A stretch of 28,885 nucleotides of DNA from Saccoglossus kowalevskii (Eukaryota; Hemichordata; Enteropneusta; Harrimaniidae): NCBI RefSeq assembly GCF_000003605.2, contig NW_003120928.1:341877-370761 (forward strand), written 5' to 3'. The position numbers and the translations under genes were made by a program. Below the pieces are notes generated by a model. It was not told where the DNA came from and ran no database searches. It was given only the letters and a program-made list of their open reading frames with translations. This document shows, piece by piece, positions 761 through 28,109 of this stretch; the stretch's first letter is position 1; each line of letters opens with the position of its first letter.

Positions 761-1084
761 TTTTGCTTCGTCTTTTATGCCCCCTTGTAACTTATCAATG
801 TCAATCCAACTTTTCCTTGATGTATATGTTGACAGTGGAATATTTTCGGCTGTAACATTGTACATATCGCACCGTTGTTCCATGAAATGGTATCGTACTG
901 ACTTACACATGTCTTCAGCGTCATCACATGCAAACACACATAAGAGTGAATTCAGAGCATATATAACTTTCTTTGGTGAAATACTTATTGACTCCCCGGA
1001 GATTTCGCTTGCGGTTCCAATCCAAATTTTACTCATCAAGATAAGACTGCATATGCACAAGCGGTGAAATATTGTATACGCCAT
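761..1084 (-). CDS. Copy 0, exon with signal peptide and PAN/apple-like domain (5' end of gene)
   Basis: This is the first coding exon of another member of the family, which continues past the left edge. It starts with MAYTIFHRL and a hydrophobic signal peptide of about 25 residues. A small Cys-containing domain follows, with LLCVFACDD near residue 50, then MCKSVRYHF and RCDMYNV, a pattern I read as PAN/apple-like. It is 324 bases long (108 codons, phase 0) and ends at a good donor (GCAAAA/GTAAGT). No stop or frameshift is present. It is closely similar to the copy A exon at 19146-19472 but one codon shorter. PAN/apple domains bind proteins or carbohydrates in secreted proteins; the ligand here is unknown. 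The PAN call is from cysteine and aromatic spacing only. Confidence 0.7.
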
Positions 1085-1605: not shown

Positions 1606-1928
1606 TTACAAAACTACAAAAATTTCTGAAATATATGTGAAAGCTTGACCAGCGTAATTAATAATTGCGTTACCAGCTGTTCCAAAATAGCTCCCCAAAT
1701 GCAAGACGTAGTTATGGGCTTCGTCTTCAATCCAGAATGAATCATACTCGGCGAATGCTGTATCACCATCAAACTTTTTCAAGTCGATTCTCATTTTATA
1801 GCTAGTTTGTGACGTCATATTATGGATTGCATCGTTACCCATCCAGTAATCTCCATCCACATTGCCAAATCCTTCTTTATAATCAACCCAGCTCCTGTTA
1901 AAATCTCCATAAACGTTATGCTGTATTA
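1606..1928 (-). pseudogene. Copy C, truncated fibrinogen-like (FReD) exon
   Basis: The reading frame from the acceptor at 1928 matches the fibrinogen-like exons of copies A and B, with landmarks FNRSW, GDYWMGNDAIH, YKMRIDL, DSFWIEDE and GTAGN. Homology stops near 1640, right after GQAFT, where A and B continue into the DRDND calcium site. The remaining codons come from flank sequence and end in a stop. So the last 60 or so residues, including the calcium site, the second disulfide and the ligand pocket, are deleted. The junction joins sequence equal to A positions near 14995 with flank equal to about 13060 and 12015. This copy cannot make a working fibrinogen domain. Confidence 0.85.
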
Positions 1929-2068
1929 CTGCAATGAATATTAGAAAGTACATGTAAATGGACAGCTCATTAACATTTATAGAGACATTGAATACTGTAG
2001 ACAGAAAACTTCTGTTCTGAATATAACAAAGATAAATCTTAGAATATTGACACATTGTTAATAGGATG

Positions 2069-5128: not shown

Positions 5129-5822
5129 TGATAATGAATATCATTGTCTGTTGACAACCTCTATTTCTCCATCTACAGTTCCCACTCCAGATGGTGCTAG
5201 AATTGATGTTCTTTCACTGACCAATAATCAATGTCTTTCTATGTTCAGATTTGGGAAAGATGAACTCTTTTGTTTGAAGTCTGCTATGAAAATTCCGCAT
5301 AAAATTGTAGGTGCAAACAAGACTGTGGCAACTGGAGCGGCAGATTTATGCATCCTACTGAGAAGGCTGGTTTATCCAAATCGCCTGGATGATTTGATCC
5401 CCATATTTGACCGTTGAAGAAGTGAAGTCAGCATAATATTCAACACTGTTCTTAATCATATTTACGATAATTTTGGACATTTGCTGCAGTCCCTGGACAA
5501 GTACTGGTTACAACCTGAATCTTGGCAGTTATTTTGCAATGCGATTCATGAACGTGATTCTCCACTCACCAACTGTTGGGGATTCATAGATGGTACAGTA
5601 CAACCTATATCAAGACCAATACATTACCAGAAACAGGTCTTCAGTAGACATAAACGAATACATGCTATTAAATTTCAATCCATAATTGCTCCTAATGGGT
5701 TGATAGCTCACATGTTTGGGCCTTCTAAAGGTAGACGACATGATGCTGCCATGTTGGCAGAAAGTGGTTTATTGGAACTTCAATAGCTGAATGCCCCAAA
5801 TGGTGAATGCTGTGTTAAATAA
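5129..5822 (+). pseudogene. Harbinger (PIF/HARBI1-like) transposase, broken and C-terminally truncated
   Basis: This is a DDE-type transposase of the PIF/Harbinger superfamily, which cuts and rejoins element ends in the nucleus. After an intron acceptor at 5128 the frame shows the usual landmarks: FGKDELFCLK, LCILLRRLVYPNRLDDL, NCWGFIDGT with the first catalytic Asp, HKRIHAIKFQS, APNGLIAHMFGP and GRRHDAAM with the second Asp. An in-frame TGA at 5415-5417 interrupts the RSRSE-type stretch, where a Ser codon would differ by one base. A second stop (5784-5786) follows LELQ. The frame then reads LNAPNGECCV and ends. The YGDPAYP segment, the third catalytic acidic residue and the C-terminus are missing, so it is inactive. 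Its neighbour on the opposite strand is the Myb-like partner gene. Confidence 0.9.
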
Positions 5823-8494: not shown

Positions 8495-8737
8495 TTAAAT
8501 CTTAGATAGACCTCGTTTGGTTTCGCCAATGTACAACATTTTACACTGAGTACACCTAATACAATAAACCACTTTAGATGAAGTGCAAGTAAATAACTCT
8601 TTGATATTTACATATCCACCACTAGGGCCCTCAGTTTTGTCAGTAGTAAACACAAATGTACATGTATTACACCGCCGCCGATTACAGAGAATAGTTCCTG
8701 CAATACAGTCGGCATTACAGACTATTGAGTGGACCAA
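8495..8737 (-). pseudogene. Penelope-like element: Cys-rich linker and N-terminal half of GIY-YIG endonuclease
   Basis: The frame reads CNRRRCNTC, then FTCTSSKVVYCIRCTQC, then LYIGET. The V-V-Y and Y-I-G segments are the two halves of the GIY-YIG signature, and the preceding paired cysteines are the zinc-binding linker seen in many Penelope-like elements. The frame ends in a stop at KRGLSKI. The conserved Arg/His helix and metal-binding Glu that normally follow are not visible, so the nuclease would be inactive. Confidence 0.85.
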
Positions 8738-8759
8738 ACCATCTGCTTGAATCTCTAAA

Positions 8760-9162
8760 TCATAATAGGTAATGATTTAAATAGAGCTTTAGTATTAGGT
8801 GTATTTTGTAATAAAGAAATATTTTCAAAATGAATTTTAATGATTTTATTTTATTGGGGTGATAAGTAAGGACTAAATGAATACGATAACTATCCAGAGC
8901 TTTACTGGTCAACAAAGCCTGGTCCTGGGGTAAAGACTGCACATGCGCAACCGCAGCATCCATAATAGGGACAGGATAATTACGAGATATGAAAAATTGA
9001 CGCATAAATGTTGACTTGATTAAAGACATCTGTATTGTCTGAACAGCTACTGCGTAACCTGCGAAACTGTGTATAAAGAATCGAAACATCACACATTTTG
9101 GAATGGGAAGAGTTATAAAATACATATGAATGGGAATCTGTAGATTTGTAATAAATTGATGT
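8760..9162 (-). pseudogene. Penelope-like element: reverse-transcriptase thumb region
   Basis: Just after the LTR insertion the frame resumes as TSIYYKSTDSHSYVFYNSSH and ILYTQFRRLRSSCSDN, a stretch typical of Penelope-like RTs after the palm. A frameshift near 9015 moves the homology to another frame, with FFISRNYPVPIMDAA and LVLTYHPNKIKSLKFILK. The tail toward 8760 is degraded. Confidence 0.85.
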
Positions 9163-9435
9163 TGTCACACGCAACGTAATATTACCGTAATTGGTATAAT
9201 ACAGGTGTGATGGTTCAAATAACAAAATGGCAACAGTAACAGAAAGACTGGCGGCGATGATAAAATACGAACACGGAGACAAACAATGATGTTTCATCTG
9301 GTACTGGTATTATTATACTCTGCAAACATCAAGTACAATAACGCGGCAAAACTCCACTGCTCCAATGACTAGATACTTAAACTAAAATACAACTCAACGA
9401 GATCTCCGATCTGAACTCAGTGCTGAACAACTCCC

Positions 9436-9446
9436 CTATATATACC
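9436..9446 (-). promoter_or_regulatory. TATA box of the solo LTR
   Basis: On the minus strand the sequence is GGGTATATATAGGGG, placed about 220 bases into the LTR, as expected at the U3/R boundary. The same box is kept in the second LTR (about 18806-18818). Confidence 0.6.
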
Positions 9447-9508
9447 CCCACTGTCTATAAATAGACCATTACATCAGCATACATAATGAGTCTGGAACTT
9501 ACTACAAA

Positions 9509-9626
9509 TTTCTAGAATGTTGCATTACCTTCTATTGCCTCCTGCAGTGTTCTATTACCTATTCAACCAGTTTCTACAAAAAATCTAGAATATTCCACCC
9601 AGACACAGTACGGTTCTAGAACATTC
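9509..9626 (-). promoter_or_regulatory. Cluster of heat-shock-element-like motifs in the LTR
   Basis: Three blocks follow the inverted-pentamer pattern bound by heat-shock factor: TTCTAGAACATTC at 9614-9626 (three perfect units), ATCTAGAATATTC at 9583-9595 and TTCTAGAATGTTG at 9510-9522. All lie upstream of the TATA box in the LTR's own orientation. HSF control is inferred from the motif only. Confidence 0.5.
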
Positions 9627-9669
9627 TCAGTGACACGGAAGTGATAAATAAGTCGTATGCGACAGATGT

Positions 9670-14787: not shown

Positions 14788-15284
14788 TTATGTGTTATAT
14801 AATTTGATAGAAGCCGATTTTAAGGTGTATCGATTATTCCACTCATACCAGATCAAGCCAGCCTTATTATATACCTGGCCTTTTGAGTGTTGTCCATTTA
14901 AGTTGGAAAGGCCACATTTTTTATACCACCATCCACCAAATCTTGATTTGGCACAATTCCGTGGCGACAGATCATTGTCTCTGTCAATTGTCGTGAAAGG
15001 ATGACCAGCGAATCTAATCAATCCATTACCAGCTGTTCCAGAATAGTTCCCCAAATGCAAGACGTAGTTATGGGCTTCGTCTTCAATCCAGAATGAATCA
15101 TACTCGGCGAATGCTGTATCACCATCAAACTTTTCCAAGTCGATTCTCATTTTGTAGCTAGCTTGTGACGTCAAATTATGGATTGCATCGTTGCCCATCC
15201 AGTAATCTCCATTAATATAGCCAAATCCTTCCTTAAAATCGACCCAACTCCTGTTAAAATCCCCATAAACATTACGCTGTATTA
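14788..15284 (-). CDS. Copy A, terminal fibrinogen-like (FReD) exon
   Basis: This exon has 497 bases, starting in phase 1 after acceptor ATTGCAG and ending in TAA. It begins at the VIQR point of the fibrinogen fold and shows FNRSWVDFKEGFG, GDYWMGNDAIH, YKMRIDLEKFDG, YSGTAGN, the calcium-site core DRDND, the disulfide pair around NCAKS...GWWYKKCG, and LNGQH. At about 164 residues it covers the C-terminal two thirds of a usual FReD (about 220). The N-terminal part with its own disulfide was not found in the intron upstream. FReDs of this type bind acetylated sugars in lectins such as ficolins and tachylectins. Confidence 0.93.
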
Positions 15285-18200
15285 CTGCAATGAATATTAG
15301 AAAGTAAATGGTCAGCTCATTAACCTTTATAGAGATAGTGAAAACAGAAAACTTTCTTTCTAAATATAACAAAAATAAATCTTAGAATATTGACACATTG
15401 TTGATAGGATGCATTCATTTTTGGAACTCACAAAAAAATCAGATACATGAGTGGTAATGTCTTCAGTATTTTGTATTCAATCTATTGGACATGCTCCATA
15501 TTACATCTAACAACTATTAAATCAATACGATTCATAGTCACAGTTTTTTTGTACAAGCATTCTTTCATTAAAACAAGCTACTTGAAAGAATGTGGGTGAA
15601 ATTGGCGTTGTTTACATGTTCAATGATCGAATATATTTAGTATAGTAAGTATATTGATTCCATGTGAGTTACGCACTGTTTCTGTTTTTGGAATAACTTG
15701 TTCTTAACGACAAACAATTATTAAGATGTAAGGCAATATTAGGCAATGAAACGGAGCGGTTTTGACTGATTTAGTGCGAATTATCAAACTATACATACTA
15801 TTTTAATACAAACAAGACCGAGAGTGTTTGTGTTCCAAAAGTAACAAACGTGAGACTAAGTGAGATCTACAATCGGGTTAGTATTGAAAGATAAAAGAGC
15901 AATACACACCATTACAGGATTGGTTCCTTACTAGGTGATGAACTAATCGATACTCTTCAGATATTCCAGGGCAGTTATTGCCACCAAGACATGATCGTGT
16001 ACGCCTTTCATTGCAGCAGTGTTGTGTCCAAGAGGTCCATGAACCCCATTCATTCTCTGTAATGAACAATACAATGGTAGTTCAATTTAAGCAACAACGA
16101 AAAACAAATAATCAAGACATTTTCTTGTTTTATCGTAATTTGTGAATAAACCATCTTGTTATGACCATCTTATTATATGTCATTAAACGCATTCCCATTA
16201 AATGTGGTAGAACATTCTTTAAAATGAAAGATATGTACTTACGACTGAGGCATGCGACACCTGCATACACGTCATGTAAGCGAGATGTCAAGGTGATTTC
16301 ACATTGGTCAAGAGACAATTCTGTGCCGTTACACTTCACTGAACAGACAGATTCACGTTGGGAGGTAATGACATTAGTTGTCCACCCTGAAATGAGATAA
16401 ACCACAAAATACATACAGATAAAGAGGGCATGCGAATAATTCAACACATTTAATTGGGGAATGACAAGAGCCCACCGTTGATGAATTATCGTCGAATTAT
16501 ACAATAATCAATCACAATCAGGTGCGATATTACGTGAGCGGGAACAATAATAAAGAAAATAAACAATCAATTTACTGAGATATTACAATGTATCGTCAAA
16601 TCGATGACAGCAATAAAGATGGAGAGCAAATACATATCCCAAAATTAATGCAATCACACCAAATAACACAATGAGGAAGTTCGGCAAATCATTAATGGAG
16701 GTTCATATTTAATCTGAGGTTGTTTTATTGAGTAGGTGGATGTTAATTTATAATATGGCACAATAACAATGCGTACCTGAAATGGCACCAGGAAATCCAA
16801 GATGTTTACATGCGATGTTGGCATCATTAAAATTCCAAGCCAAGCCATTTACACCAATCCATCCACCAAACCATTCGATGAATAACTGTAGAGTGCCATT
16901 ACCACTCATGCCTCCGTTTCCATGTAACCTTGGTACTGCTATAGTTGTCGTTGATTCTAAATCAAAGGATGGTAAATGACAACTATCTTTTAATTTATAT
17001 TCGTTTGTAAAATGTTGTGTTCGGATATAAAAATCAGTCTAAGAACATATGAATTGAAAAATACCTTTTGTCCGACTATTTAAAATATTACCTGAAAAAC
17101 AAATTAAAATAAATATTCAATTTATCAAGTATATTTCTTAATAAGCCATGTCAGTCTGGGAGAGCATGGAAAGGGTAGCATTTATTTGAAGTGAATGTTA
17201 TCGACGGTTAAGAACTCTGGTTCAAGGACTCAACGACGACCAGTAAAATTAGGTTGGAGTACACTTTGTACCTTTTTTCTCGTTAAAGTAACATTTCTTA
17301 AATTCAACTGGGTGTCCAAGACCTGAACCCTCTTCTAATATTAAACCTTTGTGTTTCAGAATGTAGTGCCTTTTTCTTTCCTGGTACCCGATGCCAATGG
17401 TAGTGCTGCAGTCGCTCCAAAGTTCCCATGTGCTCCAAATGTTGATGATAGGTGTTACTATAGAAGATATAAATGATAGATGTTACTATATACGATATAA
17501 ATATAAACACACGTGAATATATATCACTACACTATATTGGAAGCTGCAATATAATACTTTTAGAATGGCAATATTTTTCAAATCAAGTTTGACAGGAATA
17601 CGTACCTGGAATCTCGCAATTTTTCCCGGTGAATCCGCCACTGAATCGGCAGGTACAACTGTACGTTTCTCGTGAAACCGCAACACACCAACCATTGTTG
17701 TTACAGGGATCGTTGGCACATGGATTCTGAAAAAAATATGGCACAATAATTGCGTAATAATGAATGAAACACTGATGGAGACAACAATAATAAATAAAAA
17801 CCGCATATTTAATCAAAACACACATACATTTTATTACACTTTTTTTATTTTTGTTTTAGGAATCATTAACTGTTTTGAAAGATCATCATTGTGGGGCACA
17901 GCTACCGAAAACGCTAAATAGATATTTATTTAGTAAAAAGCTGTGTGATTCAACACAAACATTAATCTGTAAAATGTCGAAAATGTTTTTCCTAGTCAAA
18001 AAATGACACTACAATTAAACATAATTGCGCACATAAAGTGATAAAATGCATGTAAATAAACTTAGTAGCTTGACAATGTTTATAATGACACAACTAAATG
18101 GACGATTAAAATAAATACTTGGAAATGTATTATGGTTAGTACAGTATACTCTATTTCAGACCACGAATTTACGCTCACACATCCCATATAATACATGGAA

Positions 18201-19472
18201 TGGCAATTCTATGGAATGGAAATGGAATAGGCCAATGGAGAACTTAACCGTACAAGATCTCCTTGATCCTGGAATTAAACCTGTAAGTCTTATACCATTT
18301 TTGACAGACAGAAGTCCATTTCGTACAAACATTCAATATATGAAGAAAAAAACATTTACATTTCATTTGTTTAGCGACATGTGTGTAGTGCCATGAAGTA
18401 CATGAATACATAATATGACTCGCAGCAAAGTCAAATTGGTTGAAAAAGTTTTAGAATACATAGAATCGATCACAATAGAACATATAACACTGATATTGGT
18501 TCACATGAGGTTTGGAGGTATGTAGAGGCAAATTATTAACGTAGATGACAAGTCAATAAAATTCATTGCACAATTCATTCCTCACACGCAACGTAATATT
18601 ACCGTAATTGATATAGTACAGGTGTGATGGTTCAAATACCAAAATGGCAACAGTAACAGAAAGACTTCCCTGGCGGCGATGATAAAACACGAACACGGAA
18701 CCNNNNNNNNNNNNNNNNNNNNNNNNNNNNNNNNNNNNNNNNNNNNNNNNNNACTCCAATACAACTCAACGAGATCTCCGATCTGATCTCAGTGCTGAAC
18801 AACTCCCCTATATATACCCACACTATCTATAAATAGACCATTACATCAGCACACATAATGAGTCTGGAACTTACTACAAATTTCTAGAATGCTCCATTAC
18901 CTTCTATTGCCTCCTACAGTGTTCTATTACCTATTCAACCAGTTTCTAAACACAATCTAGAATATTCCACCCAGACACAGTACGGTTCTAGAACATTCTC
19001 AGTGACACGGAAGTGGTAAATAAGTCGTATGCGACAACTCCGTACAGCAGCAATTCAACACACAATATCGTTTAGTCTAATGATAATTATTTTGAAAAAA
19101 TATGAATAAATATTTCAATTGAGAGTTTGATGAATAAATGCTTACCTTTGCTTCGTCTTTTATGTCCCCTTGTAACCCGATGTCAATCCAACTTTTCCTT
19201 GATGCATATGTATATGTAGACAGTGGAATATTGTCGACTGTAACGTTGTACATATCGCACCGTTGATCCATGAAATGGTATCGTACTGACTTACACATGT
19301 CTCCAGTGTCACCACATGCAGACTCACATAAGAGAGAATTCGGAGCATGTATAACTTTCTTTGGTGAAATACTTATTGACTCTCCAGAGATTTCGCTTGC
19401 GGCTCCAAACCGAATCTTACTAATCAAGATAAGACTACATATGCTCAATCGGTAAAATATTGTATACGCCAT
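14788..19472 (-). CDS. Copy A, mosaic secreted protein PAN-EGF-TSP1-linker-SRCR-TSP1-FReD
   Basis: Seven exons can be joined: 19472-19146, 17726-17606, 17457-17272, 17091-16777, 16386-16243, 16056-15910 and 15284-14788. The phases are 0, then 1-1 throughout, and the total is an exact multiple of three (about 578 residues). Order: signal peptide and PAN-like domain, EGF, TSP1, linker, SRCR over two exons, TSP1, fibrinogen-like end. No membrane segment follows the signal peptide, so a secreted protein is expected. FReD, SRCR and PAN are all recognition domains, which suggests a lectin-like or defence role (inference). One in-frame TAG at 17039-17041, from a 12-base insertion relative to copy B, interrupts the linker. 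Either this copy is a recent pseudogene, or that part is spliced differently. Intron 1 holds a solo LTR. Confidence 0.8.
15910..16056 (-). CDS. Copy A, second TSP1 exon
   Basis: This exon has 147 bases, phase 1-1, with acceptor ATTACAG and donor AATG/GTGTGT. It reads EWGSWTSWTQHC, RRTRSCLGG and NNCPG, the W-x-x-W and R-x-R-x-C pattern of a thrombospondin type 1 repeat. Two cysteines (the second of HCC and the one in QSCNG) are both glycine in copy B. Confidence 0.85.
16243..16386 (-). CDS. Copy A, SRCR domain second half
   Basis: This exon has 144 bases, phase 1-1, with acceptor TTTCAG and donor CAGTC/GTAAGT. It reads GWTTNVITS, then CNGTELSLDQCE and YAGVACLS, matching the C-terminal half of a scavenger-receptor Cys-rich domain (CxGxExxLxxC then VxC). 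Confidence 0.88.
16777..17091 (-). CDS. Copy A, fused linker and SRCR first-half exon, with in-frame stop
   Basis: This exon has 315 bases, phase 1-1. The SRCR part reads VPRLHGNGG, LQLFIEWFGGWIGVNGLAWN and ACKHLGFPGAIS. The usual Cys of the WGTVC stretch is absent. The first third is a linker (KDSCHLPSFDLE) equal to a separate exon in copy B; here the 65-base intron and 18 exon bases are missing, in frame. TAG at 17039-17041 lies in frame within a 12-base insertion absent from B. Confidence 0.8.
17272..17457 (-). CDS. Copy A, first TSP1 exon
   Basis: This exon has 186 bases, phase 1-1, with acceptor CTATAG/TAACACC and donor AAAAAAG/GTACAA. It reads INIWSTWELWSDCSTTIGIG, then ERKRHYI and EFKKCYF. 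The three spaced tryptophans and the following Cys and basic residues fit a thrombospondin type 1 repeat, though the R-x-R-x-C cysteine is replaced by a Tyr. The frame is covered by no long ATG-initiated ORF but matches copy B base by base. Confidence 0.75.
17606..17726 (-). CDS. Copy A, EGF-like exon
   Basis: This exon has 121 bases, phase 0 to 1, with acceptor TTTTTTTCAG and donor TTCCAG/GTACGT. It reads NPCANDPCNNNGWC, YSCTCRFSGGFTG and NCEIP, which are the six cysteines of an EGF domain. No calcium-binding D-x-D/N-E start is present. Its phase 0 start matches the phase 0 end of the PAN exon. Confidence 0.92.
17827..18580 (-). other. Intron 1 of copy A, proximal part, with a block absent from copy B
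   Basis: This aligns with 28160-28735 in unit B, apart from about 155 bases at roughly 18170-18325 (the block with ggaatggaaatggaatagg). The block is missing in B, where cacgaattt runs directly into the shared cattcaatatatg stretch. No exon is seen; the plus-strand ORF at 18211-18396 falls mostly in this private block. Confidence 0.5.
18580..19036 (-). mobile_element. Second solo LTR, in intron 1 of copy A, with assembly gap
   Basis: This matches the LTR at 9163-9664 almost throughout, including the TATA box and the HSE-like blocks (18986-18998, 18955-18967 and a weaker one at 18882-18894). The left end has lost the terminal bases (cctcacacg in place of tgtcacacg). Flanks attcc and actcc may be a five-base target repeat with one change. 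Fifty Ns replace about 100 bases present in the other copy. Confidence 0.8.
18703..18752. other. Assembly gap of 50 Ns
   Basis: The run is exactly 50 Ns. The equivalent part of the other LTR (about 9281-9380) is near 100 bases, so the gap size is a placeholder and the true length is probably longer. Confidence 0.95.
19146..19472 (-). CDS. Copy A, exon with signal peptide and PAN/apple-like domain
   Basis: This exon has 327 bases (109 codons, phase 0), with donor GCAAAG/GTAAGC. It starts MAYTIFYRLSICSLILISK, a clear signal peptide, followed by SLLCESACGD, MCKSVRYHFMDQRCDMYNV and an end rich in charged residues. The start was chosen because it is shared with copy 0 and opens a signal peptide. 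Confidence 0.75.
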
Positions 19473-19477
19473 GCTGC

Positions 19478-19524
19478 CTGCAGTAAAAATGATTCTCTCG
19501 AACAGATCAACGGCAACCGCTTAC
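19478..19524 (-). other. Possible 47-base intron in the 5' leader of copy A
   Basis: Donor ACATG/GTAAGC and acceptor TTTTTACTGCAG are conserved with copy 0 (1090-1134), while the bases between them differ in length. Splicing is unproven. Confidence 0.3.
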
Positions 19525-21182
19525 CATGTTCCAGCTGGTTAACTTTTTATAATTAGTTATTCAGAGACTTCATCAACTACATTACAGTAAATTACTATTT
19601 TTTTTTATCTTCAAATAACCAATTAATGGTTTTTATTGCCTTGTGTTTTACTAATATTACTAATTTCCCCCTAATGTATTTTCTTGATGCATTAGACTAA
19701 TTAAAAACGTAGCCATACCGCATATGTTTCTAAAAGAACATAGACAATATCGATATTTCAATCACCCACGTTAAGTTGAGTAAATACAGTACCCAAATTA
19801 AACTTGTTAAACTAAAATATGTTTTTGATATAAATGTAGTATTCAGTTTTAAAATGATGTTCTTGACGTGCCTGAACAGCTGTTTGTTTTATACGAATAT
19901 GCAAATATTCAATGACCGATTTACGATTTGCGTAGTGTGAATACTTTGGACGCTGGTCTTTGACACAATTAAATGCAATTTTACTATTTGATATCGAAGT
20001 TAAATTATATTTACAGATATTCTCGGTGACTTTCGTATATCCAAATACTGACAGAACTCCTTGACATTTGCCTTGGCGTTTATAAGTGCGTAATTTTCAC
20101 TGTATATAAATATATTATAATATAAATATATTAAAGTTAGTTGTTTGGGGGAATGTGTATTAGTAGTTGTTACTCAGCGTTAGTAAACATTTTAATAATA
20201 TTACACATACAATATATTAATTTACAATATATATATCTGTTCTATTTTTATAGAAGAACCTTTCCAAATAAAAAAAAATTCTAAAATTTAAAAATATAAG
20301 AGGTAGTCACTAAACCATGTACTTTCACACTCAAGCAAGAGAATAGACATGTTGGTGAACTAGCTTTGCACTGTGAGTGTTTTATTGTTTACACTCTGTA
20401 AAATACCAGTTTTTTCACAAATAAAAAAACTTAAAAAAAAACTTCTTTATATTTTTTGAGTGGGCAAGCCATGTTTCCACATACACAAATACACATAATA
20501 TTTCTATTTAATTTATTTTATTTAAAAAAAATATTTTAGAAGCATAACAATACAACGACTAGATTTGGTGTCACAGTTTGCTCCCAATTCATACTGGAAT
20601 ATTGCCAGCAATAATTAATAAAGCTTGTTCAGAAAACCATTTATTCCCGACATCATATTCAATGGCTAGTTCTCAGGATCTACAACAGTAAATAAATAAA
20701 CAAAAATCATTTTGATGCGTGGTTTTTAGACGACACTGCCATATCGCACAGATATTCAACACCGCCATATCGAATTTGGATTTGGACCATACCATTTCAA
20801 GCTGCAGGGTGTCTAAACAATGACTCAACAAACAATAAACACATCTTGCACCCACCACACAAATTTTAGCCACAATTGAACAACCAAGAAAGCAACAATT
20901 ATCAGGCTGCATCTTGAAAACAACGAGATACCAGTCATTACAAACATGAAATCCTCCACCCCTCCCAGTACACCCCACAGCATTAATGGTTCCTATACTC
21001 ATTTGCATCTATGTACAACAAGCTTAGCCAATAGATGCACCGGATTCATCAAACTTTTGACCAACCACTCATTCTAAATATTGTTGAGTGAGGGCGCTAT
21101 TCACTAATGAGAGGAATCTTTTAAACGAATTAAACATATATATATATATATATATCAATTCCTAAAATAAAATAAATGGAGT
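19525..21182. other. Intergenic stretch between copy A and unit B; no gene supported
   Basis: About 19680-19890 matches the upstream flank of copy 0 (about 1215-1450) and so may hold shared promoter sequence. The rest is AT-rich. A plus-strand view of 20570-21110 is less AT-rich and may be an old repeat; the minus-strand ORF there (20673-21008, Cys-rich) has no domain I know and no splice or repeat support. Confidence 0.5.
21135..21156. repeat. TA dinucleotide microsatellite
   Basis: A pure TA run of about 11 units lies just before unit B begins. Shorter TA runs are at about 269-286 and 22520-22536. Confidence 0.85.
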
Positions 21183-21484
21183 TGTAATTAGTACAACTAT
21201 CAACCCAAATACACTAAAATCAAACATGATTTAATTACACACCCCCCGCCTGTAGCTGAGGTCATATGTTGTTAAAGAAATTAAATTGTAACACATGTTA
21301 CAGTATTTAAACTTATTAATTCGGTAATGTTTACATTATTTAGAGTGTGTACACTGGTGAGTTCAAAATATTTATCAGCCATTAAGAAATAGACCATCAT
21401 ATTCACAGATGTGCTTGTAAAAGGCCATTGACCCAAATAGCAAATACCATGGTAACGGTGAAATACATTCTAGCTCTGTTTTTC

Positions 21485-21974
21485 ATGGCAAAATAAACAT
21501 AAGTAGCTAACTTTTTTAAATTGCTATCATTTCTTGAAATCATACGCAAGATAAAATTGTTGTTATTGATTGTTCTCAACACTATATTCACAAAATCTAA
21601 TATCAAGGGGGATTATGTCTTTCATTTTCAATACGCAAATTGTGAGAAGAACAACGTAACCTACATTTTCTTGATCAAGTGACCATTTAAAATTGTGATA
21701 GGGACGGAGTTTGAGGGAAGGAGCAGTGTCGTCGTGCCAGAATTGTAGCACACAATCTTTAATTCTCTGCGTGTACTGTGAAAGAAACACACTTTTTGAC
21801 CCTCACTTTGTTCAGCCATACATGGCCGAATCAAAGCCGGAAAAGCAACATTTTTATATTAAACGCCCAATTTACCGACATTACATTAACATTAAATAAC
21901 ATTTATTGGGATATATATTAGCTTCCATTTGTAATATTCTACTTGTGCCATTGTTATTGTCGAAGAATTGCTTT
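21485..21974. other. About 490-base block in unit B missing from unit A
   Basis: In unit A ctctgttttt is joined directly to acctaaatag. In B about 490 bases separate them. A trace of the block's end (ttattgtcgaagaattg) is also seen in copy C (near 1478), so the block may be ancestral and deleted in A. The ORF 21563-21790 minus is not recognised. Confidence 0.5.
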
Positions 21975-23435
21975 TACCTAAATAGTAGAAACAAGCGAGG
22001 CTATATTGACTCTGATGGTCATGCCTTCCTTGTCAATTTCATAAACCAGTACTAGTGAGTATAGAAGTCTTAGCTACTCTTTAACTGAACAAAGTAGACT
22101 GACGTTTAAATAAAAACATTTGTAGATAGCATGCCGATGTACACAATAACTTCATTTTCAACGTTGACTATGTCATTGATAAGGATTTATTAAATCCAGT
22201 AACTATATTACTGAACAATATATATTTTAAAACTACTACTGTAAGGCTGATTAATACATATGGCATGTACTTCCATGGTAATATTTACGTCGTTTCACCA
22301 CAATCGTCGACATTGCATTTTCTCGTTTAATTATATTTTGTAATGACAATATAGTAATTAATTTTACAAAAAGAGTATTTTATTGATTGCCCACATATTC
22401 TTGCATTGCCAGAGCAATAACCTACGTCATCTGATGTTGTAAAGAAATTCGCCAGAAATGTATGCATCAATAAAATAGGATTTGGAATATATTTCAAGGC
22501 CAGTGCAAAGTATTGATCAGTTATATATATATATAACAACAAACAATCGACAACAAATAATTGCGTATTATTAGGTATAGGTTTGTCAAGTAAACACGCT
22601 TATGAAATAAACAACAATGTAGACTTTGTTCTGTAATGATATAGGTTCCAACAACACGACATACGAGGTTGGAACAGTAGAATTACCGGTTCAAGTAAAT
22701 TCTTCTTTCAATTCGACTACCTCAATATAGAAACTTGTCAGTTTAGTGTTATTAACACTGGTTTTGTGTTCGGGGGACTTCACTCACTCAGCTGACAACA
22801 CTTACACGTAGAGATACCAGATTGGTCTCAAATGAAAACACATTATTTCATTACAGATAGTCAAGCTTTATTCTTCCAAACAGTCAGCTGAGGAAACCCC
22901 TCGGGATCCATTTTTCTCGTTATCCTCTTACAAAAAGGTTACAAACTTTCTACTAATATCTTAAAAGTCAAGTCTCTAAGGCGTGGCAGAGTAAACATGC
23001 TATCAGCCAATCGCTGCGGTAGTTGGCTTGGTCACATGATCACTAGGTATGTGTCTCACTGTTAAAGCCTTGCAAAGTCGTCACTAGTAAATACAATAAG
23101 TATAAAATTCCTGTAATATATGTTTATAATCTCTACCCCAAACATGCAAATTGTTAATTCTAAACAATAGTGCAACGGCGTGTGAACCGACGTCGCTATG
23201 GTAACATTAGGATATGTCTGATAGTTTTCTCTATTTCGGCCATTAGAAGGTTTTTACTTGTGCTAAGTTATGTACAATATAAGTTATGTTGAAGGATTTG
23301 AAAATGTAGCTTAACGCGTGGATTGCTCTATGGTGATTATTTCTCTATTTTCCTGGAAATCAAGACTAATAGTACTTGCATTTTGCAAAGTCTCACTCAA
23401 GCGATCAACATTATTAGATAGATATATGAAACTCA

Positions 23436-24575
23436 CTATGTACACGAACGAATAATAATTACAAACTGAAATGATGCAATACTTGACAAGTAATGGAATG
23501 AACAACCTAAATATGTACAAGTGTAATCATAAATCTCACAATGATACGAAGTGACGACAACTATGACCTATACACGTTTCCAATATATTACGGACGACAA
23601 CACAATACCGTAATGCAAGTGTTTCGTCGCAATCATTATTGATAAGTAGGTTATCATACTAGTATATACTAACATGTTATACTCGACACTCCGCCAGTAA
23701 AACGTATTCAATTCTTCGGTCCCTCCGAATATCATTAGGTTCATTTAAAATTGGCAATCATCTCTACACTTGACATCAGTCTACCAGTGAATCGTTCAAC
23801 TCGCACACGCGTTTTTCGTACATGTGTTATGAATTGTTTGCGCACAAGTTGTATCGGATAATCAACATGTCTGCTTGTATGAATAACACAAATAAGCGCC
23901 GTTTCTATCAAACAAAAAGTTAGTCACATTGAAAGCTCACTTACAACGGTTGGCTAGAATACAAAGAGCACTAGCATTATTGCTTTGGTGTGATTTGACA
24001 ATGAATGTATTTGACAATAAAATCGTTTTATTCAAAAATGTTAAGTGTTTTTGTGTAAGATGTATAAAGTCGTCGACGGGACATACATATCAAATTTAAT
24101 TTACGTGAATTCTATTTACTGTGATAATTTATAGCTGTGGTATAACTGACAGCGAATGGCTTTATAAATATAAACAAACCTTACATCATATACATTGATA
24201 CACTAAATACTTGACAATCCAACCAAAAATGCACTGTAGTATCGCGTGGTTTCGTCTCATAGTTTTCATAATATACATAGTTATGTTTATGGGCTTATGA
24301 ACTATATGTCAAAATTGTGGTGCAAAACGTGTTATATTAGTAGAAACAAGTCCACATCGACTGTACTTTTCATTTTTCAAATTCTATTCATGGTCTTTTA
24401 TTAATTAACATTGTTAATATTCCAAAACATAGTTAAATTATAGTGGCCCATGGATGCTGTTTCTTTAATGCAAAAATATATTCTTTATTGTCGTCAAATG
24501 AATCATAATTTTTAGGGATGATGTAACTATTTCAAATTTGAGTGTCGATAAATTCAACGATATCCATAATATATC
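23436..24575. other. Unit B-specific block with no counterpart in unit A
   Basis: This takes the place of the A-specific block 13461-14300. It is AT-rich with short ORFs only; no repeat family was recognised. Confidence 0.5.
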
Positions 24576-25058
24576 AAAAAATGTTTGTCATCTCATCGAA
24601 ATCTATTTCAAAGTGTCAACTTGTGTGAATATAAAATAATAACAGCAAAAGATGTGGTAGTAATAAAGTCAAGTGACTTCTGAAGATTGAAAGCTCTTTA
24701 CAAACTTCGTATATGGAGGTCCAGTTTTAAAAATAAATCAACGTTAGCTTCACGTACATGTCCTACGTGTGTTTGTTTTAGTGATGCGTATCGCCAATGA
24801 GCCTACTGGCTTGATTTAAACATTGTTTGTAGGTTTTACGTAGGGAAATAGAATCATTTACATGAATAACGGAAATCTTAGGATATGTTGCAAACGTCAT
24901 GAATGTTTATACCATGTCTTACTGAAAATCAACCTTGTTCTGTTTTGTTCATATAGAATTATAAGAATTAGTAATTTTTCGATAAAATAAAGAAAACAAT
25001 TAAGACAGATAAGCACAGTTCAGTAAAGAACACGATTATTATTCATAAAGATTTGGGG

Positions 25059-25555
25059 TTATGTGTTGAATAATTTTATAGAGGCCGATTTTAAGGTGTA
25101 TCGATCATTCCACGTATCCCAGATCAAGCCATCCTTATTATATACCTGGCTCTTTGAGTGTTGCCCATTTAGATTGCAAGGGCCACATTTAGTAAACCAC
25201 CATCCAGCAGACTTCCTTTGAGCACAATTAAATGTTGCCTTGTCGTTATCTCTGTCAATTGTCGAGAAAGGTTGATCGGCGTTATCAATCATTGAATTAC
25301 CAGCTGTTCCAGAATAGTTTCCCAAATGCACAATGTAGTTATTGGCTTCGTCTTCAATCCAGAATGAATCATACTCGGCGAATGCTGTATCACCATCAAA
25401 CTTTTCCAAGTCGATTCTCATTTTATAGCTAGCTTGTGACGTCAAATAATGGATTGCATCGTTACCCATCCAGTAATCTCCATTGATATTGCCAAATCCT
25501 TCTTTATAATCAACCCAGCTCCTGTTAAAATCCCCACAAACGTTACGCTGTATTA
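25059..25555 (-). CDS. Copy B, terminal fibrinogen-like (FReD) exon
   Basis: This has the same length (497 bases) and boundaries as copy A. It keeps FNRSWVDYKEGFG, GDYWMGNDAIH, YSGTAGN and DRDND. After the calcium site it differs: KATFNCAQRKSAGWWFTKCG, then PCNLNGQH, with an added Cys where A has Ser. The N-terminal FReD part is also absent here. Confidence 0.93.
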
Positions 25556-28109
25556 CTGCAATGAATATTGGAAAGTAAATGGAAAGCTCATTAACATTTA
25601 TAGAGACATGGAATACTGTAAACAGAAAAACTTCTGTTCTGAATATAACAAAAATAAATCTTAGAATATTGACACATTGTTGATAGGATGCATTCATTTT
25701 TTGAACTCACAAAAGCAATCAGACACATTGAGTGGTAATGTCTTCAGTATTTTGTATTCAATTTATTGGACATGCACTGTATTATATCTAACAACTACTA
25801 AATCAATACCATCCATAATCACATATCTTTGATACAAGCTTTCCTTCATTTAATCAAACTCTGGTTAGGCTACAAGACGGAAATGGGTGCAATTGTTTAC
25901 ATGTTCAATGACCGAATATATATAGTGTAGTAATTATATTGAAAGGAAATGTGAGTTACGCACTGTTATTGTTTTGGAAACACCAATTAAACACTAATTA
26001 GTAAAGAAAAACAATTATTAAGAAGTAGGGCAATACCAGGAAATAAAACGGAGCGGTTTTGACTGATTTACTGGTGAGAATTATCAAGCCATACATCCTA
26101 ATTTAATACAATCAGGACCGAGAGTGTGTATTTCCCAAAAGTAACAAACGCGAGACTAAGTGAGATCTACTATCGGGTTAGTACTAACAGAATTATTTTA
26201 AAAAAATAGAGTAGTACACACCAATACCAGATTCGTTCCTTACTAAGTGATGAACTAATCGATGCTCTTCAGATGTTCCAGGGCAATTATTTCCACCAAC
26301 ACATGGTCGTATACGCCTTTCATTGCCGCAGTGTTGAGTCCAAGAGGTCCATGAACCCCATTCATCCCCTGTAATGAACAATACAATGATAATTCAATTC
26401 AAGCCACAGTGATTAACATATAATCAAGACATTTCCTTGTTTTATTGTAAGTGGTGAATAAAGCATCTTGTTATATATTATTATATGTCATTACACGTAT
26501 TCTCAATCAATGTAGCAAAACATTCTTTAAAATGAAGGATATGTACTTACGACTGAGACATGTGACACCTGCATACACGTCATGAATGCGAGATGTCAAG
26601 GTGATTTCACATTGATCAAGAGACAATTCTGTGCCGTTACACTTCACTGAACATGCAGCTTCACTCTGGGAGGTGATGACATTAGTTGCCCACCCTGAAA
26701 TAAGATAAACCTCATAATACATCACGTGATTCTGCGTAGTACAGATAAATAGGACATAAGTATGCCGAGTATTTCGACACATTGAATTGGTGAATATTAG
26801 TAAATTGTCAAGATCCCACTGTGATAAATTAAAGAGTCGAATTATACAATAATTAATCACAATCAGGTACCATTACAAGAGAGAGTACTTAGAGCAATAA
26901 TGAAGAAGATAAACAGTGAATTTTCTAAGATATTACAATACATCGTCAAATTGATGGGAGAAATAAAGATGCAAATCAAATCGCACATCCTAAAATAAAC
27001 CCAATCACACCAAATAACAAAATGAGCTAGTATGGAAAACTCATGATTGAGGTTCATATTTAATCTAAGGTTGTTTTATTGAGTAGGTGGATGTTAATTT
27101 ATAATATGCCATAATAACAATGCGTACCCGAAATGGCACCAGGAAATCCAAGATGTTTACATGCGATGTTTGCATCATTAAAATTCCAAGCCAAGCCATT
27201 TACACCAATCCATCTACCAAGCCATTCAATGAATAACTGTAGAGTGCCATTACCAATTATGCCTCCGTTCCCATGTAACCTTGGTACTGCTATAGAAACT
27301 GTTGAACGCCAATGAAAATGACTTACAAAGTAACATAATTTGAAGATGACACATTTTACTTACTGACAATGTTGAAAGTTGTCGTTAATTCTAAATCAAA
27401 TGATGGTAAATAACAACTATCCTTCAATTCATAATCGTTCGTAAAATATTGTGTTCGGATATAAAAACATATAAATTGAAAAATACCTTTTTTCCGAATA
27501 TATAAAATATCATCTGAAAAACAAATTAAAATAAATATTATTCAATTTAACAAGTATATTTCTTAATAAGCCATGTCATTCTAGGAGAGCATGGAAAAGA
27601 AGCATTTATTTGAAGTGAATGTAGATGCATGTTATCGACGCTTAAAAACTCTGGTTCAAGGATTCAACGACCATTAAAATTAAAATTAGGTTGGAGTACA
27701 CTTTGTACCTTTTTTCTCGTTAAAGTAACATTTCTTAAATTCAACTGGGTGCCCAAGATCTGAACTCTCTTCTAATGTTAAACTTTCGTGTTTCAGAATA
27801 TAGTGTCTTTTTCTTTCCTGATACCCAATGCCAATTGTAGTGCTACAGTCGCTCCAATGTTCCCATGTGCTCCAAATGTTGATGATAGGTGTTACTATAA
27901 ACGATATAAATTAACACATTTAAATACTATAATATAATATTTTCAGAATGGCAATGTTTTTCAAATCAAGTTTGATAGGAATACTTACCAGGAATCTCAC
28001 AATTTTCCCCCGTGAATCCGCTACTAAATCGGCAAGTGCAACTGTACGTTTTTCGTGAAAGCGCAACACACCAGCCATTGTTGTTACAGAGATCGTTGGC
28101 ACATGGATT
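25059..28109 (-). CDS. Copy B, mosaic secreted protein (5' end outside window)
   Basis: Exons 28109-27989 (EGF), 27894-27709 (TSP1), 27513-27364 (linker), 27298-27128 and 26694-26551 (SRCR), 26368-26222 (TSP1) and 25555-25059 (FReD, with stop) join in phase to 1416 bases, with no internal stop. The signal peptide/PAN exon is expected beyond 28885. This looks like an intact gene, unlike copies A and C. Function is inferred as a secreted lectin-like recognition protein from its FReD and SRCR domains. Confidence 0.85.
26222..26368 (-). CDS. Copy B, second TSP1 exon
   Basis: This exon has 147 bases, phase 1-1. It reads EWGSWTSWTQHC, RRIRPCVGG and NNCPG, ending NESGIG. It lacks the two extra cysteines of copy A. 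Confidence 0.85.
26551..26694 (-). CDS. Copy B, SRCR domain second half
   Basis: This exon has 144 bases, phase 1-1. It reads GWATNVITS, CNGTELSLDQCE and YAGVTCLS; the splice sites are the same as in copy A. Confidence 0.88.
27128..27298 (-). CDS. Copy B, SRCR domain first half
   Basis: This exon has 171 bases, phase 1-1, with acceptor TTCAACAG and donor TTTCGG/GTACGC. It reads IAVPRLHGNGG, LQLFIEWLGRWIGVNGLAWN and ACKHLGFPGAIS. The first conserved SRCR cysteine is missing, as in A. Confidence 0.85.
27364..27513 (-). CDS. Copy B, linker exon
   Basis: This exon has 150 bases, phase 1-1, with acceptor TTTTTCAG and a consensus donor GTCA/GTAAGT. It is open throughout (for example FYIRTQYFTNDYELKDSC, then YLPSFDLELTTTFNIV) and is followed by a 65-base intron. 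No domain was recognised. Copy A keeps most of it, but with a TAG. Confidence 0.65.
27709..27894 (-). CDS. Copy B, first TSP1 exon
   Basis: This exon has 186 bases, phase 1-1. It reads INIWSTWEHWSDCSTTIGIG, ERKRHYI and EFKKCYF. It is nearly the same as in copy A, and its differences keep the frame open. Confidence 0.75.
27989..28109 (-). CDS. Copy B, EGF-like exon
   Basis: This exon has 121 bases, phase 0 to 1, with acceptor TTTTTTCAG and donor TCCTG/GTAAGT. Six cysteines are present: NPCANDLCNNNGWC, YSCTCRFSSGFTG and NCEIP. Confidence 0.92.

Follow-up and report, generated by a model that had tools for sequence, protein, structure and literature searches.

A tandem gene array of Saccoglossus kowalevskii that probably encodes secreted PAN-EGF-TSP1-SRCR-TSP1 proteins with a shortened fibrinogen-like end, and related fronts next to other C-terminal modules

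The window analysed here is a stretch of 28,885 nucleotides (nt) from the 572-Mb genome of Saccoglossus kowalevskii (bases 341877-370761 of contig NW_003120928.1, here C1350), bordered on both sides by runs of N. It is probably best explained as a tandem array of genes for mosaic proteins, likely secreted, in which the modules PAN, EGF, TSP1, SRCR and a second TSP1 precede a fibrinogen-like domain (FReD). By the same explanation, this order would be one branch of a larger family whose members share a PAN-EGF-TSP1-SRCR(-TSP1) front and differ in their tails. On other contigs the scaffold exons of the front recur in an unchanged order and are followed, on the strand they occupy, by different modules; purifying selection acts within the array. 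An initial annotation had placed two gene copies, A and B, on the minus strand of the window, and the exon joins bear out both copies at those positions. Taken as a whole, its observation largely holds and its interpretation is supported in part.

Copy A lies on the minus strand from 19472 to 14788, where seven exons join to 1584 nt, giving 527 codons and a stop. All six introns have GT-AG borders, and the exon phases run 0-0, 0-1, four times 1-1 and then 1 to the stop. The exons are as follows.

19146..19472, minus strand, exon 1: hydrophobic N-terminus (likely signal peptide) and PAN/apple-like part, from an ATG to a GT donor, ending in phase 0
17606..17726, minus strand, exon 2: EGF, phases 0-1, by the Pfam EGF match and splice borders
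17272..17457, minus strand, exon 3: TSP1 with two cysteines only, phases 1-1, by TSP_1 and splice borders
16777..16938, minus strand, exon 4: first half of SRCR, phases 1-1, by the Pfam SRCR match over the joined halves
16243..16386, minus strand, exon 5: second half of SRCR, phases 1-1, by the same match
15910..16056, minus strand, exon 6: short TSP1-like, phases 1-1, by likeness to an exon of contig C1728
14788..15284, minus strand, exon 7: FReD lacking the first ~44 residues, phase 1 to the stop, by Fibrinogen_C

An AATAAA lies 128 nt past the stop and is not kept at the corresponding place in copy B.

A Pfam search of the joined copy A protein, the check proposed in the initial annotation, recovered the FReD, SRCR and EGF domains. 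The fibrinogen-like end is strongly matched (Fibrinogen_C, PF00147, 1.4e-45, 156.3 bits vs. a cut-off of 22), although the domain is partial and covers profile positions 45-218 of 221. SRCR scores 1.6e-10 (41.6 bits vs. a cut-off of 26.1) and EGF 5.2e-5, over its cut-off. PAN_1 falls just under its cut-off (20.6 bits vs. 21.4). TSP_1 reaches 17.5 bits in the whole protein, under the cut-off, and 23.6 bits vs. 21.6 when exon 3 is taken alone. Pfam does not recognise the second TSP1-like exon itself; the C1728 exon that matches it shows TSP_1 at 16.8 bits (E 0.0077), also under the cut-off. The predicted structure of exon 1 has a mean pLDDT of 62, with 43 of the 109 residues between 70 and 90. 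Comparison of this model with the PDB gave 133 weak matches (E up to 10), none at 0.001 and the best at E 0.015. The 50 matches listed include SML-2, plasminogen, HGF NK1 and an Eimeria PAN module, which we take to be PAN/apple carriers.

The TSP1 and SRCR exons are poor in cysteines. In the SRCR of copy A the cysteine of the VCDDGW motif is replaced (VNGLAW) and the cysteine of HxC is absent, and the sequence departs from the canonical six-cysteine pattern of SRCR group A; by the cysteine numbering that we assume, these two cysteines are presumably partners of one SRCR disulfide. The N-terminus is hydrophobic (best 15-residue mean 1.72, residues 4-18). The protein has seven N-glycosylation sequons and no later stretch that equals the start in hydrophobicity, features that fit a secreted protein. 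No immunoglobulin superfamily (IgSF) domain was found among the six Pfam families of the joined copy A protein, or in the three minus-strand frames of each of two copies.

Copy B extends on the minus strand from 28109 to 25059, with EGF to FReD present in an open frame. The join from EGF to FReD stays in frame at 1407 nt with a linker exon and at 1257 nt without it. Apart from the linker, the following exons were assigned by this in-frame join.

27989..28109, minus strand: EGF exon
27709..27894, minus strand: TSP1 exon
27364..27513, minus strand: optional linker exon, phases 1-1; the same stretch carries a TAG stop in copies A and C
27128..27289, minus strand: first half of SRCR
26551..26694, minus strand: second half of SRCR
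26222..26368, minus strand: second TSP1-like exon
25059..25555, minus strand: truncated FReD exon

The PAN exon of copy B was not found within the window, which ends there at a run of N. A PAN exon in the right flank was also sought. The flank is N from 370762 to ~385920, and from there to the contig end two weak EGF matches are listed (E 0.077 and 0.28) and no PAN.

A third copy, C, lies ~257 kb away on the same contig and on the opposite strand (95254-99943). It has all seven exons but is damaged: a stop interrupts EGF, and TSP1 has both a stop and a 19-nt deletion. Two further copies, D and E, are represented in the window by pieces.

761..1084, minus strand: PAN exon of copy D with a GT donor; the following exons would fall in the run of N that borders the window on the left
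1630..1929, minus strand: FReD exon of copy E, a relic, broken off after ~100 codons
3911..3982, minus strand: piece of the second TSP1-like exon of copy E, 24 codons, 58% identical to copy A

For copy D, a FReD tail appears past the left run of N, which spans contig positions ~331145-341876; the tail lies at contig 331143-330991.

The module order proposed for the two copies, PAN-EGF-TSP1-linker-SRCR-TSP1-FReD, is seen in copy A, in copy B from EGF on and in the damaged copy C, except for the linker. When entered from its CAG acceptor, the linker has the TAG in frame in copies A and C, whereas a 12-nt gap relative to A and C removes this TAG in copy B. A linker that is a constant part of the protein is thus ruled out, and the exon is usable in copy B only. 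Around 16930-16950, copy A lacks the short linker-SRCR intron seen in B and C, with the SRCR acceptor TATAG still in place. The same three copies support the described layout of exon phases, 0 and then 1-1, as expected for exon shuffling. The initial annotation had also held that the architecture does not rest on one gene model. This is correct from EGF to FReD, but the join of PAN to EGF rests on copy A and the damaged copy C, since no PAN exon of copy B lies in the window.

Comparisons of the copies showed ratios of nonsynonymous to synonymous substitution rates (dN/dS) of 0.31 for A-B (413 codons, bootstrap 0.22-0.45), 0.36 for A-C (512 codons, bootstrap 0.25-0.52) and 0.41 for B-C (406 codons, bootstrap 0.28-0.62). 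The splice dinucleotides that can be compared with copy A agree at 11 of 11 places in B and 12 of 12 in C. The faster divergence of silent sites, together with the kept splice sites, indicates coding constraint beyond what chance would leave.

The FReD of the array lacks the N-terminal subdomain A and its disulfide. The same FReD acceptor is used in copies A, B, C and E and in a copy on contig C253, so the truncated start predates these duplications. A first-look Pfam start at profile position 15 for C253 was rejected, because the match runs into sequence upstream of the array-type acceptor. That the domain is whole, with its first ~45 residues supplied by an unrecognised exon or an unsequenced stretch, is very improbable. 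Three FReD loci elsewhere in the genome (L017, L019 and L021, on contigs C1731, C298 and C2107) do split the domain at this place by a phase-0 intron between T and V of WTVIQRR, one exon ending in WT and the next beginning with VIQRR, and the array FReD exon starts at the same V codon as their second exon. However, a profile built from 11 FReD N-termini of this genome found no exon for subdomain A within the window, although it recovers its two positive controls at 6.3e-22 and 2.5e-17. Outside the controls, its best matches reach E 0.027 (copy C) and E 0.23 (window); both fall where the PAN exon begins, in an off frame, and were taken as chance. On this search a hidden exon for residues 1-45 was rejected, and the TSP1-FReD intron is without N in both A and B.

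In a tree of FReDs the array groups with those of contigs C4443, C2724 and C1728 with a support of 0.99. These relatives carry the whole domain in one exon, which in C1728 begins in phase 1. Subdomain A was probably dropped when a splice acceptor within or at the old FReD exon was taken into use. The old exon start, as seen in the C1728 relative, and the new start are both in phase 1, which keeps the frame. If the acceptor arose at the V codon of W-T-V, phase 1 would be kept, so that a single change could drop 44 codons without a frameshift. Alternatively, the truncation site could be an old intron site instead of a new acceptor, as the intron at the same codon, in phase 0, in L017, L019 and L021 would suggest.

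The shortened domain retains the DRDND calcium-site motif and the NCA...C cysteine loop of the binding subdomain. When three copies are compared, 45 of the 165 FReD columns vary, and these are unevenly placed: 10 of the first 80 columns, 29 of the 61 in columns 81-141 and 6 of the last 24. The densest 40-column window of variable columns was equalled in 5e-5 of shuffles.

The array could instead be mostly non-functional, made of duplicates of a dying gene, with the FReD a broken remnant that is in frame by accident. Such decay is visible in the stops and the deletion of copy C and in the relic copy E, and the missing subdomain A and the few cysteines of TSP1 and SRCR would also fit it. However, copy A has an uninterrupted frame of 527 codons and retains every splice site, the bootstrap upper bound of the A-B dN/dS stays at 0.45, and the truncated FReD start with its acceptor, common to A, B, C, E and C253, is older than the duplications. 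A largely dead array is thus considered unlikely.

Scaffold exons also occur on nine contigs other than C1350, each time in the same order and on one strand. A genome search with the joined copy A protein gave at least 87 exon matches at E <= 0.01 (82 of 201 candidates scored), and one with the scaffold from C1210 gave at least 48 at E <= 1e-4 (116 of 171 candidates scored). These counts are lower bounds; each of the nine loci was read in part, and several are cut by N. The loci are as follows.

C1210: PAN-EGF-TSP1-SRCR-TSP1
C4175: PAN-EGF-TSP1-SRCR-TSP1, then a second, canonical SRCR in two exons (Pfam 4.1e-11 and 6.4e-7)
C1345: PAN ~3.4 kb upstream, EGF-TSP1-SRCR, then EGF repeats (Pfam 1.3e-9 and 1.4e-8)
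C3169: EGF-TSP1-SRCR, then EGF repeats (tblastn)
C4725: EGF-TSP1-SRCR
C2731: EGF-TSP1, first SRCR half (SRCR-a), WSC-like exon, TSP1
C2745: second SRCR half (SRCR-b), TSP1, then kringle (1.6e-22) and a stop; N upstream
C1728: SRCR-b-TSP1-full FReD; N upstream
C253: SRCR-TSP1-truncated FReD, frameshifted; N upstream

Over EGF, TSP1 and SRCR-a, copy A is 43-59% identical to the six loci outside C1350 that were compared. On C2731, PAN, EGF and TSP1 matches occur at two further places. Its WSC-like exon (L041, 4183-4479, phases 1-1) has the motif GCFA...NGGWCASS and no Pfam match. The same motif occurs in a WSC exon of C1210 (L037, 4645-4930), where Pfam WSC scores 2.8e-4, under the cut-off. A weak Pfam match to reverse-transcriptase RNase H (6.9e-5, under the cut-off) was also seen on C2731 (L041, frame 1, residues 2533-2562). 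Further upstream exons of the C1728 relative are blocked by N from 613207 to at least 627200.

The exons that follow the scaffold might be adjacent, unrelated genes read as one with it. In C1210 the best-placed acceptor of the WSC exon, which lies 1.6 kb away, is in phase 0, and a phase-1 AG 59 nt further upstream has a poor context; the exon was consequently not counted as joined, and it speaks against a shared scheme of tails. In contrast, the kringle, EGF, second SRCR (SRCR2) and C2731 WSC-like exons have well-placed phase-1 acceptors on the same strand, 0.3-1.1 kb after a scaffold exon, and such an acceptor is also available at the C1728 FReD exon. Other AGs are listed beside these acceptors, and the choice among them is ours. 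On balance, a chance succession of neighbouring genes appears improbable.

Several other elements were observed in the window. A DDE transposase fragment (5418-5783, plus strand, Pfam DDE_Tnp_4 4.9e-11) is presumably Harbinger-like. A 284-nt repeat occurs twice with 95% identity, at 9381-9664 and 18753-19036; the second, which has a run of N next to it, falls within intron 1 of copy A, and copy C lacks it. An open stretch on the minus strand (8498-8776) ends in LYIGETKRG, which we take to be the GIY-YIG of Penelope-like elements, and has no Pfam match at 0.01. Outside the window, the mitochondrial contig C4830 (L026) reads TGA as Trp, and its conserved sites suggest, in our reading, ATA as Ile, AAA as Lys and AGR as Ser. 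It carries nad1 and cox2 on one strand and cox1 on the other. Such a code is hemichordate-like; the placement of the genes on the strands does not, in our reading, fit that of acorn worms.

If the array and its relatives are expressed as their exons suggest, the scaffold and tail exons would be joined in transcripts and the protein would be secreted. The shared front might then serve as an adhesive or oligomerising mount, with the C-terminal module as the exchanged recognition part. Phase-1 introns at the inner borders mean that adding or removing a C-terminal module leaves the reading frame intact. Such a protein would most likely serve innate immunity, as a lectin-like pattern-recognition protein or opsonin.

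The main rival on function sees the protein not as an immune lectin but as part of a matrix or an adhesive, be it tenascin-like, skeletal or of mucus. It is a less probable possibility that deserves more weight than the other alternatives. TSP1, EGF, PAN and SRCR are also matrix modules, and tenascin-R is the closest solved FReD by sequence. Tenascins combine EGF with a C-terminal FReD. Unlike them, the array genes have PAN, TSP1 and SRCR, and neither fibronectin type III (FNIII) repeats nor a collagen part were found among the six Pfam families of the joined copy A protein. The tandem turnover, the relics and the divergence focused in the binding part of the FReD also look more like recognition genes.

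A literature search, in which animal proteomes were not covered and the papers were represented by excerpts, found no described family with the order PAN-EGF-TSP1-SRCR-TSP1-FReD. The closest likeness in plan is to the VIgLs of Biomphalaria (FREP, CREP and GREP). In the portions of PMC10875847 considered, these form a multigene family of secreted proteins with a shared N-terminal part and an exchanged fibrinogen, C-type lectin or galectin end; one FREP is reported with a partial fibrinogen domain. The genes described here would share with them, so far as those portions go, the constant front, the exchanged C-terminal module, the multigene character and probably secretion. In contrast to the VIgLs, the front is PAN-EGF-TSP1-SRCR-TSP1 and the modules observed behind it are FReD, kringle, SRCR, EGF and WSC-like. 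The same portions define VIgLs by IgSF domains (PMC10875847), and none was found here; thus the family resembles the VIgLs in plan and is not one of them.

SRCR and FReD genes are expanded, and SRCR often reshuffled, in invertebrates, according to excerpts of several reports (PMC6321704, PMC11797021, PMC13228809, PMC2575513, PMC6208332, PMC3927612, PMC10855680, PMC10875847). The array is similar to the shuffled SRCR proteins of amphioxus, sponges, sea urchin and ctenophores in combining SRCR with EGF, in its tandem clusters and in its lineage-specific architecture. However, no SRCR-FReD or PAN-EGF-TSP1-SRCR order is among those described in the excerpts of these papers (PMC2575513, PMC10855680, PMC11797021). 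In comparison with tachylectin-5A, the ficolins and FIBCD1 (1jc9, 2d39, 4m7f), the array FReD has the same calcium-site motif and binding-subdomain cysteine loop, but subdomain A is absent, the acetyl-pocket aromatics are not kept and no collagen stalk was found.

Tentatively, and at somewhat less than even odds, the family may have arrived independently, as a second case, at the design of the snail VIgLs. A constant PAN-EGF-TSP1-SRCR-TSP1 mount would have its FReD, kringle, SRCR, EGF and WSC-like tails exchanged via phase-1 introns, and one branch would carry a working FReD without subdomain A, its ligand loops diversified copy by copy.

A number of observations weigh against the main reading, that of a lectin-like family with a shared front and differing tails. 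None of the four residues Y210, H220, Y236 and Y248 of tachylectin-5A (1jc9), presumably those of its acetyl pocket by the numbering we assume, is the same in copy A; as the aromatic pocket is not kept, an acetyl-sugar ligand is not predicted. The predicted structure of the FReD exon is unusable (mean pLDDT 36.8 on three rows), and the truncated domain may not fold. In the variable part of the FReD the synonymous rate (dS) is also high, at 0.39-0.55, and the nonsynonymous rate (dN) stays below it. Because silent changes are high in the same part, the divergence need not be selection, and gene conversion or mutation bias accounts for it as well as selection does.

The relatives add to these difficulties. 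C4725 has no tail by Pfam within 4.1 kb, C1345 has a stop in SRCR-a, the FReD of C253 is frameshifted, and the SRCR-b exon of C1728 rests on a 32-residue tblastn match with no clear acceptor. For C4443 and C2724, which hold two of the three closest FReDs, the upstream sequence that was read contains no scaffold exon. In the upstream stretch of C2724, Pfam finds trypsin only, and these trypsin exons were taken as a neighbouring gene. A six-frame search of the genome for the SRCR family gave 51 matches at E <= 0.001, and the SRCR exons of the window itself are not listed among them, indicating that family-level counts overlook such degenerate copies.

If the truncated FReD nevertheless folds and binds, subdomain A would be dispensable. 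With the same front apparently placed ahead of several tails in one genome, and with matching phases, the succession of module gains and losses could be traced from the sequence itself.

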